A DNA stretch of 64,000 bases, from the NCBI GenBank assembly GCA_016185125.1, contig JACPOC010000002.1, positions 62,001-126,000 of the forward strand, given 5' to 3'. Below the pieces are notes generated by a model. It was given only the letters and a program-made list of their open reading frames with translations. It did no database searches and had not been told where the DNA came from. The position numbers and the translations under genes were made by a program. How positions within the stretch are numbered: the first letter of the stretch is position 1; each line of letters starts with the position of its first letter. Origin of the DNA: Bacteroidota bacterium. GTDB taxonomy: Bacteria; Bacteroidota; Bacteroidia; B-17B0; Aurantibacillaceae. Positions 50,076 through 54,170 of this stretch are shown in pieces.

Positions 50076-51323
50076 TTAAACCTTCTGCAACTCAATAACG
50101 GTTATCTCAGGCCAAATTCCCAACCTTCCCGGGTATCCTAAAAAACCCAATCCACGGTTAACATATAAGAACTGATTATCCTGTTTATATAATCCGGCCC
50201 ACTGCTTATAAAAATATTTTACCGGGCTCCACTTCACCAATCCAGGAATTTCAATTCCAAACTGCATGCCGTGAGTATGTCCGCTTAAAGTTAAATCAAT
50301 GTCTTTATATTCTGTCTGCACCTGCTTTTCCCAATGGCTGGGGTCGTGACTCATTAAAATTTTAAAGGGATATTTTGCCGCGTCTTTATAGGCGACTTCC
50401 ATTTTTCCATACTTTGGAAAATTCATATTGCCGCCCCAATTTTCAATTCCAATTAAAGCAATTTTTTCGCCCTTATTTTCAAGCTCCACATGTTCATTCA
50501 TGAGTAAACGCCATCCCGCGTTTTTATGAACGGTTTTTAATGATTCAAGATTTTTTTGTTTTTCTTCCGGACTGTCCCACTGCACATAATCGCCGTAATC
50601 GTGATTTCCTAAAACAGAATAAACGCCATGTGGAGCTTTTAACTTGCTATAAACAGATTCAAATCCTGTAGTTTCAATGGCCTTATTGTTTACCAGATCT
50701 CCGGTAAATAAAATAACATCAGCGCCTTGTGCCATTACAATATCAAATGCTTTTGTAAGGGCGCTATTATCCAAAAAAGAACCGGTGTGAATATCCGATA
50801 TCTGAACAATTTTATAACCATTAAAAGCCTCCGGGATATTTGGTGAAAGAACTTTTACATTGTGAACCCTGTATTTATAGGCCCCGCGCACCATGCCATA
50901 AATAAAACCCACTGCGGGAATTATTGTAAACGTAACGGCAAGCTGACTAAAAAATTTTATGCGACTTATTTTTGTTGTGGCTTCTACAGCTTCTGCAGAT
51001 TTAGTTTTGAATAAAGAAAACACCCAACGAAATAAACGGATGATATCATCAATGATCAAAAAACTACAGCCTAATAATTTACAAACCATCAAAATCAATA
51101 CTAAGGCCAACGTAAAGCGGAAAAAATTATTCCAGTTTGCTGCGGGATAAAAAATTGAAATGATGCCCATTACAACATTAAGCAAGGCAAACGCGTAGGC
51201 TGTATATAAAAGGGCGCTTCTTTTTCCGGGCGAAAAATCCTGAGAAAATGTTTTTACCGCTTGAAGAAAGTAAACCTCAACAACAGTAATTATAAGAAAA
51301 AATATGATGAACCGCGTAGCCAT
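50076..51323 (-). CDS. Membrane-anchored metallophosphoesterase
   Basis: A 415-residue protein with four N-terminal membrane helices (about 1-170) and a cytosolic- or periplasm-facing calcineurin-like phosphatase domain. Metal-binding motifs are visible: QISDIHTGSF (DxH), FTGDLVNN (GDxxx), VLGNHDY (GNHD), MSHDPSHW and LSGHTHGMQFG (GHTH). This layout matches the YkuE/UDP-DAGP-like branch, some of which act on lipid-linked phosphates. ATG 51323 (MATRF) starts just before the first helix; an ATG 13 codons upstream is also possible. It is divergent from the Ddl gene. Confidence 0.87.
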   Translation of the reverse strand: MATRFIIFFLIITVVEVYFLQAVKTFSQDFSPGKRSALLYTAYAFALLNVVMGIISIFYPAANWNNFFRFTLALVLILMVCKLLGCSFLIIDDIIRLFRWVFSLFKTKSAEAVEATTKISRIKFFSQLAVTFTIIPAVGFIYGMVRGAYKYRVHNVKVLSPNIPEAFNGYKIVQISDIHTGSFLDNSALTKAFDIVMAQGADVILFTGDLVNNKAIETTGFESVYSKLKAPHGVYSVLGNHDYGDYVQWDSPEEKQKNLESLKTVHKNAGWRLLMNEHVELENKGEKIALIGIENWGGNMNFPKYGKMEVAYKDAAKYPFKILMSHDPSHWEKQVQTEYKDIDLTLSGHTHGMQFGIEIPGLVKWSPVKYFYKQWAGLYKQDNQFLYVNRGLGFLGYPGRLGIWPEITVIELQKV

Positions 51324-51431
51324 TTTCGAGGCACAAAAGTAATCAATATACGCCATTTGCAAGCAATAGTAGTTTACATATCAATGTTAATTATTCTCAA
51401 AAAGAAAAATCAGTCTCAACTCAATTTCATT

Positions 51432-51464: not shown

Positions 51465-54170
51465 ATGAGTAAAATAAGGATAGGCATAATTTTTGGCGGA
51501 CAAAGTAAAGAGCGTGAGATATCTTTTGCGGGTGGTAGAACGGTTTATGATAATTTAAACAAATCGTTATTTGAAGCTATTCCTGTATTTGTTGACAGCT
51601 TTGGAAATTTTATTGAGCTCAAATGGGAATTTGTTTACAAAGGAACCATTCGCGATTTTTATCCGCCGGTTGAATTTCTTCCTGCAAATTCCGATTTTCA
51701 ATTATACGCCGAAAGTTTGGGCAATTTAAATCAATCGGAGCAAAACGAACTCATTTCAAAAATAGGCAAACGATTAACTCTTCGTGAACTCAAAGAAAAA
51801 ATAGACCTCGCGTTTTTGTGTCTGCACGGTCCCTTTGGAGAAGACGGCCGTATTCAAGGTTTATTCGAATACATTGGCATTCCTTACAGCGGCTCAGGTA
51901 TTTTAGCATCTGCTATTGGCATTGATAAAAGCATTCAAAAAGAATTAATGGTAAATAAAGGGTTTAATAGTCCCGCTTACATTACCATTAAACGCGATGA
52001 TTGGATAGAAGGAAAGGCAAAAAATTCCTTTAAATCGGTTAAAGAAAAAATAGGATTTCCCTGTGTAGTAAAGCCTGCCAATCAAGGATCGAGTATTGGT
52101 ATTTCTGTGCTTCATTCAGATAACGAATTTGAGTTTATGAGTGCCGTGGAAAAAGCCTTTTTTACAAAATGGCTCGATGCGAAGGAATGGCAAGGGTTTA
52201 CAAAAGAAGAAAAAACTTTATTCATTAAATCGCTGGCGGATATTCGTGAAGGAATCGGAATGCCAATTGCTATCACTTATCCTGAAGGCTTAAACACACC
52301 GGTTATTTACGATCCGAATAAATTAATTGAATTTTTAGATGAACACCTGCACGACGACGGATTTATTTTAGAGAGCATTGATGGAGAAAGTACGGTGTTG
52401 GTTGAGGGATTCATTGATGGAAAAGAATTCAGTTGCATTGTATTGGAAGATGAAAATGGAAAAGCCATTGCTCTCCCTCCTACAGAAATAAGAAAAGGAA
52501 AAGAGTTGTTTGATTACCGCAGTAAATATTTACCGGGTTTATCACGTAAAATTACACCCATAGATCTTCCCGATCTTCAAATAGAAGCCATACGAAAAGA
52601 TTGCGAACGCTTGTTTTACGAATTGCATTTTGATGTTTACGCGCGCATTGACGGATTTTTAAGCAGCGAAGGAAAAATATTTTTAAATGACCCGAATACA
52701 ACCAGTGGTATGATGCCTTCTTCCTTCTTTTTTCACCAAGCAGCTGAAATTGGTTTAAATCCTTCTCAGTTCTTAACTTTCATTATCCGCACTTCACTTT
52801 CAAAAAGAAGCATACAATCAAAAGGGAAAGTGAGCTATAAACAAATACTTCACAAGTTAGATGAGCTGATCGTAAAAGATAAAAATGCCGCGAGTAATAA
52901 AATTCGTGTGGCTGTTATTTTAGGAGGCTATTCTTCGGAGCGACATATTTCGGTTGAAAGTGGAAGAAATGTTTTTGAAAAATTAGCTTCCTCGGAAAAG
53001 TACGCGCCCTTTCCGGTATTTTTAACCGGTAATAATCAGGAGCAACAATTGTATCACATTCCCATTAATTTAATGTTAAAGGATAATGCGGATGATATTA
53101 AAGAAAAGGCAGAGAATTTTAAAGTGCACGCGGTAATTAAAACTATTATTAAGGAGTGCGAAGCTATTACCAATAAATATTCTTCCTCGAATGCCATCGC
53201 TTCGCCTGAACGTTTAAGCTTTAAGGCTTTAAAACAAAAAGCCGATGAAATATTTATAGCCTTGCACGGAAGGCCTGGTGAAGATGGTGCAATTCAGGAA
53301 AAACTCGATGAGTTAGGTTTGCCATATAACGGATCGAGTAAAGAAAGTTCCTCGCTTACCATTGATAAATATCAAACCAATGAATTATTAAAAGCGCATG
53401 GCTTTTTGGTTGCCGAACATTTATTGGTTACCAAACAAGATTGGGAAAAAGATAAAACAGCTATAGAAAATAAATTAAAAGAAACAATTCAATATCCCTT
53501 TATTGCCAAACCGGTAGACGATGGTTGCAGCAGCGCAGTAAAAAAAATAAAAAACTTTAAAGAGTTTGAATCCTTTTGTCGGCTTATTTTCAGAACTACC
53601 GAAGAGCTGGACGCCAAGGCCGCGCTTACACTTCATATTAAATCAAAAGAAGAGTTTCCGCAAAAGCAGGTCATATTAGTGGAAGAATTGATCTCTAAAA
53701 AAGACGCTCTTCATTTTTTGGAAGTCACCGGCGGCATGCTAACGCGTTACGATACTAACGCCCAAGTTCAGTATGAGGTTTTTGAAGCATCCGAAGCTTT
53801 AGCGGATGGTGATGTGTTAAGTCTAGAAGAAAAATTCTTAGCCGGACAAGGACAAAACATAACTCCGGCACGTTATGCGAAGGACGTGCAACAACGCCAA
53901 ACCGTTAGTGAGCAGGTGAAGAGAACGTTAGGAGAGGCGGCCAAAGTGCTGGGTGTTACCGGCTATTGCCGTATTGACGCATTTGTTCGTGTGTTTGCCG
54001 ATTGCAGAACCGAAGTAATTTTTATTGAAGTAAATTCTTTGCCGGGAATGACGCCCGCTACATGCATTTTTCATCAGGCGGCCATTAATAATTACAAGCC
54101 TTATGAATTTATTGATACAATTTTAGAGTTTGGAAAACAGCGGGTAAGCTTGTTAGCGACTAATAGTTAG
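51465..54170 (+). CDS. ddl: Tandem D-alanine--D-alanine ligase-like fusion protein
   Basis: ATP-grasp protein of 901 residues made of two Ddl-like halves, roughly 1-455 and 478-901; a normal Ddl has about 310-370. Each half begins with the family opening (GIIFGGQSKEREISFAGG; VILGGYSSERHISVESG) and has the HGPFGEDG / HGRPGEDG motif. The first half keeps a normal KPANQGSSIGIS loop, but its metal-site motif is DPNTTSGM, with Asp in place of the usual Glu. The second half has a standard EVNSLPGMTP metal site, but its loop is KPVDDGCSSAV. The halves may thus divide the work, or one may be regulatory. It probably makes D-Ala-D-Ala for peptidoglycan; whether another ddl exists is unknown. Confidence 0.85.
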   Translation: MSKIRIGIIFGGQSKEREISFAGGRTVYDNLNKSLFEAIPVFVDSFGNFIELKWEFVYKGTIRDFYPPVEFLPANSDFQLYAESLGNLNQSEQNELISKIGKRLTLRELKEKIDLAFLCLHGPFGEDGRIQGLFEYIGIPYSGSGILASAIGIDKSIQKELMVNKGFNSPAYITIKRDDWIEGKAKNSFKSVKEKIGFPCVVKPANQGSSIGISVLHSDNEFEFMSAVEKAFFTKWLDAKEWQGFTKEEKTLFIKSLADIREGIGMPIAITYPEGLNTPVIYDPNKLIEFLDEHLHDDGFILESIDGESTVLVEGFIDGKEFSCIVLEDENGKAIALPPTEIRKGKELFDYRSKYLPGLSRKITPIDLPDLQIEAIRKDCERLFYELHFDVYARIDGFLSSEGKIFLNDPNTTSGMMPSSFFFHQAAEIGLNPSQFLTFIIRTSLSKRSIQSKGKVSYKQILHKLDELIVKDKNAASNKIRVAVILGGYSSERHISVESGRNVFEKLASSEKYAPFPVFLTGNNQEQQLYHIPINLMLKDNADDIKEKAENFKVHAVIKTIIKECEAITNKYSSSNAIASPERLSFKALKQKADEIFIALHGRPGEDGAIQEKLDELGLPYNGSSKESSSLTIDKYQTNELLKAHGFLVAEHLLVTKQDWEKDKTAIENKLKETIQYPFIAKPVDDGCSSAVKKIKNFKEFESFCRLIFRTTEELDAKAALTLHIKSKEEFPQKQVILVEELISKKDALHFLEVTGGMLTRYDTNAQVQYEVFEASEALADGDVLSLEEKFLAGQGQNITPARYAKDVQQRQTVSEQVKRTLGEAAKVLGVTGYCRIDAFVRVFADCRTEVIFIEVNSLPGMTPATCIFHQAAINNYKPYEFIDTILEFGKQRVSLLATNS

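Follow-up and report, generated by a model that had tools for sequence, protein, structure and literature searches.

A tandem Ddl fusion of Bacteroidota with two differently conserved active sites

The stretch of DNA analyzed here (the window) comprises 64,000 nucleotides of contig JACPOC010000002.1 from a Bacteroidota bacterium of the family Aurantibacillaceae (assembly GCA_016185125.1). At 51465..54170 it contains a gene that encodes two Ddl ligase modules in a single protein of 901 residues; the gene and all of its features described below lie on the + strand. The active sites of the two modules carry opposite residue signatures, each of which is fixed in the fusions compared, and comparison of the sequences gives good support for a specialization of the halves. 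In the reading that we favor, with about even confidence, the fusion is the resident Ddl of its hosts, in which the N-terminal half (N-half) acts as the housekeeping ligase and the C-terminal half (C-half) as an active ligase that uses another acceptor. Among essential enzymes Ddl is a textbook case and a drug target, and in 134 of 295 genomes sampled from the class it occurs in a form whose two active sites are not equivalent, with no separate Ddl beside it. Through the fusion, a second peptidoglycan terminus could come to light in a large group of mostly uncultured bacteria.

Two Ddl modules in one polypeptide

The open reading frame (ORF) begins with ATG and contains no internal stop codon. 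When the N-half (approximately residues 1-462; 51465..52850) and the C-half (approximately residues 478-901; 52896..54167) were scanned apart, each matched both Ddl domains above the curated cut-offs: PF01820 (Dala_Dala_lig_N) with 94.5 bits in the N-half and 79.2 bits in the C-half, and PF07478 (Dala_Dala_lig_C) with 130.6 and 74.8 bits, respectively. The proposal of the initial annotation that two Ddl ligases are fused in this protein was thereby confirmed. The lid domains extend from residue 5 to 144 (51477..51896) and from residue 481 to 624 (52905..53336), with E16 and E492 at the position of E15 of Escherichia coli DdlB. Between the halves lies a linker (approximately residues 452-477; 52818..52895) that is helical in the AlphaFold2 model. 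The two halves of the window protein are 25.7% identical. An insert of about 70 residues in the ATP-grasp part of the N-half (approximately residues 233-305; 52161..52379, boundaries from alignments) contains a near-invariant DIREGxGxP motif; a comparable stretch is found in an N-half-only protein of Bernardetia (see below), and the insert possibly contacts the C-half.

The whole protein scores 382.2 bits against TIGR01205, the family of E. coli DdlA and DdlB, and passes the cut-off of 245.65 bits, which neither the N-half (237.4 bits) nor the C-half (150.6 bits) reaches alone. In trees both halves are placed outside the separate Ddl. Judged from sequence, the fusion probably works like a Ddl, and under strict criteria of family membership it counts as a variant. 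It shares with DdlA and DdlB the lid and the ATP-grasp part, present in both halves, and the N-half keeps E15, S150, Y216, K215, R255 and S281; it differs from them in having two modules per chain, an Asp at E270 and the insert in the N-half, and C150, F216, T281 and a rewritten loop in the C-half.

A structure of the whole protein was predicted with AlphaFold2 from an alignment of 62 fusions (68 of 80 loci yielded full-length ORFs, 61 of which entered the alignment). The mean predicted local distance difference test score (pLDDT) was 83.8 and the predicted template modeling score (pTM) 0.84; pLDDT values below 50 occurred only at residues 346-349, 355-360 and 791-802, inside the two omega loops. 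In a Foldseek search the whole-protein model was closest to Ddl structures. The C-half modeled alone (pLDDT 80.0, pTM 0.77) matched Salmonella DdlA (3i12_A) with Z 31.7 and a root mean square deviation of 3.0 over 326 residues, followed by the D-Ala:D-Lac ligase LmDdl2 (Z 30.6) and by VanG and VanA (28.7). The models thus predict a Ddl fold in both halves; since DdlA, LmDdl2, VanG and VanA all match closely, the fold of the C-half is uninformative on its substrate.

Opposite signatures of the two active sites

Active-site residues were surveyed in 119 distinct full-length fusions, the window protein included, which were split into halves, and in 42 separate Ddl, including DdlA and VanA. Positions follow the numbering of E. 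coli DdlB, which served as the reference and was excluded from the counts of separate Ddl. The counts exclude ORFs that run off a contig end, as well as duplicates and entries repeating the last 700 residues. Two ORFs of 678 and 697 residues (L147 and L168), which show the C-half signature at the counted sites and are probably broken or frameshifted fusions, were excluded both from the 119 and from the set of proteins that consist of the N-half only.

All 119 N-halves keep E15, H63, K97, K144, G149, S150, E180, E187, K215, Y216, R255, D257, N272, G276 and S281, that is, a canonical D-Ala-D-Ala pocket; in the omega loop of the window protein (residues 340-366; 52482..52562), K354-Y355 correspond to K215-Y216. 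E270 is a metal ligand of Ddl. At this position all 119 N-halves have Asp (D409 in the window protein; 52689..52691), a conservative replacement of the Glu of the family. The C-halves, by contrast, retain the complete set of ATP and metal residues, E15, H63, K97, K144, G149, S151, E180, E187, K215, R255, D257, E270, N272 and G276 being present in 119 of 119, and those residues that in DdlB hold the first D-alanine are kept as well. What has changed is the substrate pocket. C688 in the motif DDGCSS (53526..53528) takes the place of S150; the omega loop LSLEEKFLAGQGQNITPARY (residues 785-804; 53817..53876) is rewritten to LSLEEKF, with Leu-Ser-Leu instead of Tyr-Asp-Tyr at 210-212 and K790-F791 at the position of K215-Y216, hence Phe for Tyr; and T866, which lies together with the metal site residues E855 and N857 in 54027..54062, replaces S281. 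H17, D147, C150, L210, F216 and T281 are likewise fixed in all C-halves, and the sites near the second substrate (150, 210-212, 216, 281 and 282) are altered and fixed or nearly so. Among the separate Ddl, S150, E270 and S281 occur in 42 of 42 and Y216 in 41 of 42. Position 17 varies among them, so that H17 of the C-half does not represent the loss of a conserved residue.

The two deviations named in the initial annotation, Asp for the metal-binding Glu in the first half and a changed substrate loop in the second, are therefore real, and C688 and T866 have to be added to those of the second half. Because D270, F216, C150 and T281 are invariant throughout the set, neither chance nor sequencing error can account for them. 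Invariance is concentrated in the active sites: in the C-half it was found at 18 of 18 chosen active-site positions versus 46 of 288 others, and in the N-half at 17 of 18 versus 45 of 288. Compared with the window protein, the N-halves are on average 65.6% and the C-halves 64.7% identical, and the halves diverge in step (r = 0.96), which shows that the C-half is constrained about as much as the N-half and is not a decaying copy. The opposite signatures agree with the specialization of the halves that had been suggested from the window alone.

Proteins that retain only the N-half

Three proteins, one encoded on a Bernardetia plasmid (623 residues) and two in genomes of a single family, f68 (557 and 572 residues), consist of the N-half and a short tail. 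All three keep the N-half signature, including Tyr216 and Asp270. The tail aligns with residues 22-117 of the C-half and is thus a partial remnant of the second lid domain (hhalign P 3e-10, probability 96.7%, three sequences). The N-only proteins are nested among the N-halves in a careful tree (95/95) and placed beside them in a quick one (91); since the two trees place them differently, it is the tail rather than the tree that provides evidence for secondary loss, and most likely the catalytic domain of the C-half was lost secondarily in these proteins. No separate Ddl was found in the two f68 genomes, which are 100% and 99% complete and retain two MurF each; their best TIGR01205 matches had E values of 4e-31 and 7e-32, whereas intact separate Ddl score 4e-69 or better. 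As these two near-complete genomes yielded no Ddl other than the N-only protein, an N-half with Asp270 very probably suffices as Ddl. The gene of the Bernardetia protein lies at L222:5998-7869 on a 602-kb plasmid.

These findings do not support the complementary loss that was initially proposed for the two halves. The replacement of Glu by Asp in the N-half preserves the carboxylate, and in two near-complete genomes no Ddl was found besides a protein that has this Asp and lacks the catalytic domain of the C-half; the C-half, in which the ATP and metal residues are kept and each of the 18 chosen active-site positions is invariant, appears re-specified and not broken.

Ddl and MurF genes of the host genome

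The host genome (3.34 Mb, 59 contigs, 99.9% complete) was searched for another ddl, as the initial annotation had recommended; profile scans found no second one on its contigs, the only clear Ddl matches were the two halves of the fusion. Five other PF07478 matches were named by NCBIfam as AccC (two), RimK, PurT and PurK. Of three further matches outside NCBIfam naming, an 888-residue frame (L012) scored above the cut-off and frames of 939 and 446 residues below it. PF07478 also catches other ATP-grasp proteins, as seen from matches in all 14 control genomes, archaea included; TIGR01205 matched in the same 14 and exceeded its cut-off in 10. In trees of the individual halves, N-halves, C-halves and separate Ddl formed three groups. 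A normal ddl next to murF elsewhere, combined with a tree that places the protein in a known non-Ddl ligase family, had been named as the outcome that would refute the initial reading; it did not appear, no normal ddl being found and both halves being nearest to Ddl and to no other ATP-grasp family.

Two MurF genes are present in the host, one in a frame of 817 and one in a frame of 455 residues (G000:C28:11098-12345 and G000:C22:76330-77577). The size of the larger frame would fit the MurF-Alr fusion known from Bacteroidota. The two MurF proteins were considered as partners of two ligases and rejected as specific evidence: at least two MurF matches (E 1e-50) occur in 14 of 16 other genomes of the class, with and without the fusion and whatever their type of Ddl. 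The exceptions are G040, with one match, and G116, in which both matches lie below the curated cut-off. A protein resembling M15 D-Ala-D-Ala dipeptidases is encoded at L253:1486-2247; by eye it has a lipoprotein-like start, and a UvrB-like gene is adjacent.

A proposed second acceptor for the C-half

In the scenario that we favor, an old duplication and fusion would have turned the resident Ddl of these Bacteroidota into a two-headed ligase. In the N-half, ATP would phosphorylate the first D-alanine, the second D-alanine would attack the acyl phosphate thus formed, and the resulting dipeptide would be used by MurF; Asp in place of Glu at the bridging metal site would be tolerated. The C-half would be an active ATP-grasp ligase that still activates D-alanine first and then joins it to another acceptor. 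We infer from sequence that both halves are catalytic, that the N-half makes D-Ala-D-Ala, and that the acceptor of the C-half differs. The activity of the C-half with another acceptor is suggested by the retention of the ATP and metal residues together with the alteration and fixation of the residues near the second substrate, and by published work on positions 216 and 150. Whether position 216 is Phe or Tyr sets depsipeptide or dipeptide activity in lactic acid bacteria (PMC5996685), and changes at Y216 and S150, the latter to Ala, confer weak D-Ala-D-Lac activity on DdlB (PMC7691350). In view of S150C, Y216F, S281T and the Leu-Ser-Leu at 210-212, D-lactate or a similar D-hydroxy acid, or else a different small D-amino acid, would be the first candidates for the acceptor. 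An altered peptidoglycan terminus, as mentioned in the initial annotation, is conceivable. Of the two divisions of labor considered there, a catalyst combined with a ligase for a different dipeptide fits best, and a catalyst combined with a regulator is the rival treated below.

Several observations weigh against an active C-half with a product of its own. No characterized enzyme was found that has F216 and C150 together, and the invariance of the residues can reflect ligand binding without catalysis. The catalytic domain of the C-half is dispensable in one group, that of the N-only proteins. As to a pathway that could supply another acceptor such as D-lactate or D-serine, the search covered MurF and M15; two MurF genes and one M15 peptidase were seen, yet MurF pairs are not tied to the fusion. 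The gene neighborhood of the fusion, described at the end, offers no hint of a second product, and the PASTA gene found there lies on the other strand in 15 of 22 loci of separate Ddl, unlike at the fusion loci. Finally, in a phylum-wide draw the C-half was detected in only 4 of 296 genomes, the host included (E 1e-40); this draw, in which 292 of the 296 genomes are at least 90% complete, was composed differently from the class draw (134 of 295).

Alternative roles of the two halves

The main rival, which we regard as unlikely but worth serious consideration, assigns to the C-half the role of a regulatory pseudo-subunit: with ATP and either D-Ala or D-Ala-D-Ala bound, it would control or stabilize the N-half, and the two would form a built-in pseudo-dimer in place of the Ddl homodimer. 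Homodimers are the usual form of Ddl enzymes, and a substitute for the second subunit would be consistent with the covalent connection of the halves, with their divergence in step, with a pocket that is different yet invariant, and with the N-only proteins, which retain part of the C-half lid and not its ATP-grasp domain. Arguing against this possibility is the conservation of the counted ATP and metal residues of the C-half in 119 of 119 fusions, among them E270, a residue absent from the N-half; if the C-half did no more than regulate, there would be no need to preserve K144, D257, E270 and N272 together.

It is less probable still that both halves make D-Ala-D-Ala, so that the fusion merely doubles the number of active sites and the differences between them represent drift or fine tuning. 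The match of both halves to the Ddl domain models, with no other family scoring better, and the presence of E15, K215, R255 and G276 in both would agree with a common product. The differences, however, are fixed and opposite between the halves in proteins whose identity to the window protein goes down to approximately 39%, and drift would not fix C150, F216 and T281 together. That E270D disables the N-half and leaves the C-half as the actual D-Ala-D-Ala ligase, a notion based on the role of E270 as a metal ligand and its presence in all 42 separate Ddl, is very improbable in view of the three N-only proteins, which keep Asp270 without the catalytic domain of the C-half; two near-complete genomes each have such a protein, and no other Ddl was found in them.

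Relation to known ligases and fusions

The Phe that the C-half has at the position of Tyr216 is shared with LmDdl2 of Leuconostoc and the Ddl of vancomycin-resistant lactobacilli (PMC5996685). From these D-Ala:D-Lac ligases and VanA the C-half differs by its additional C150 and T281 and by a score of 90.8 bits against the D_ala_D_lac cut-off of 550; in the tree the C-halves do not group with the single VanA. The MurC-Ddl fusion of Chlamydia (PRK14573) likewise contains a fused Ddl within a protein of the cell-wall pathway, but its partner is MurC and there is no second Ddl; with 193.6 bits, the window protein stays far below the cut-off of 1015 for this family. No report of a bacterial Ddl-Ddl fusion was found in the open-licence literature.

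Two Ddl modules in one chain are known from plants. The DDL of Arabidopsis and Physcomitrella is described in PMC9954125 as a fusion of two putative DDL enzymes which occurs throughout the plant lineage and whose function is stated there to be open, and the moss Ddl is reported in PMC9434261 to be closest to homologues from the Fibrobacteres-Chlorobi-Bacteroidetes group. The plant protein differs in belonging to the plastid pathway of eukaryotes. The bacterial fusion would offer a testable relative of the plant double DDL and bears on the interpretation of Arabidopsis ddl mutants. An unverified Arabidopsis DDL sequence has D270 and Y216 in its first half and C150, F216 and T281 in its second half, and departs from the fusions elsewhere (e.g. 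at E180 in the second half). The first half of this presumed sequence scored 159.8 bits with the N-half profile, 146.4 bits with that of separate Ddl and 74.9 bits with the C-half profile; the presumed second half scored best with the C-half profile (190.8 bits; 136.8 and 99.2 bits with the other two). In the tree its first half joined the N-halves (99/91) and its second the C-halves (100/100), both by very long branches. Since the sequence is unverified, common descent of the plant and bacterial fusions is a lead only. The broader proposal that one ancient tandem Ddl, of Bacteroidota or a close relative, makes D-Ala-D-Ala and a D-Ala ester or other dipeptide, and that the same gene passed to the ancestor of land plants and became the chloroplast DDL, is tentative and rather doubtful.

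Distribution and origin

A set of 60 genomes from the genus and from other families, the host included, was examined. Fusion-type matches, in part truncated by contig ends, were found in each of the 36 other genomes of the genus; the 23 genomes of other families comprise 10 with the fusion (one split over contigs), 11 with a separate Ddl of 305-368 residues, and 2 with neither. In the class sample of 295 genomes, where at most 7 candidates were scored per genome, the C-half matched strongly (E value of 5e-80 or lower) in 134; a separate Ddl, fragmentary ones being counted, occurs in 143, no genome has the two together, and 18 lack both. The match lies in one open frame of at least 850 residues in 124 of the 134 genomes and in shorter frames in the remaining ones. 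Two of the 18 genomes with neither are the N-only genomes, and 15 of the other 16 are less than 90% complete; in one of the 18, G280, a 193-residue frame close to the end of a contig encodes part of an N-half. The fusion is old and common in the class sample, and it appears to be functional.

The best 80 of 549 relatives, a selection that sets no bound on the distribution, are nearly all titled metagenome bins and include one named isolate, Pontibacter ramchanderi (L191); literature searches on the vancomycin phenotype of Pontibacter gave nothing usable. A contig titled Candidatus Saccharibacteria (L133) bears the second half of the fusion with 71% identity and is perhaps mislabeled or from a mixed bin. 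Two genomes have two C-half copies on different contigs (G309:C53 and C61; G286:C49 and C50), which may result from duplication or from a mixture in the bin. No relative was present among 74 pattern matches in viral contigs, and on plasmids the identity to the C-half did not exceed about 26% among the 10 best of 507 records.

In the trees, separate Ddl, N-halves and C-halves lie on three sides of a node. A common duplication behind both halves would be the simple reading, which depends on the position of the root.

Gene neighborhood

Neighboring genes were counted at 101 distinct fusion loci, the window included; a larger set of 129 contains repeats and fragments. The neighbor families PASTA and Ham1 were each named from one member, and the flanks of separate ddl genes covered 1.5 kb. 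At 38 of the 101 fusion loci a PASTA-domain gene follows downstream in the same orientation, and at 37 a Ham1-family gene lies upstream; a pseudouridine-synthase gene is also among the neighbors. Near separate ddl genes PASTA was found at 22 of 38 loci, in 15 of these on the other strand, and Ham1 at 6 of 38, so that an ancestral location shared by the fusion and the separate ddl is suggested at most. The operon neighbors were considered as pointers to a second product and rejected, as PASTA and Ham1 also occur near separate ddl. PASTA, Ham1 and pseudouridine-synthase neighbors are absent at all three N-only loci. In the window the fusion gene is flanked by a metallophosphatase gene and a PorP/SprF gene. 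The metallophosphatase gene (50076-51362) diverges from ddl, and a relative of it does likewise at 24 of the 101 fusion loci.

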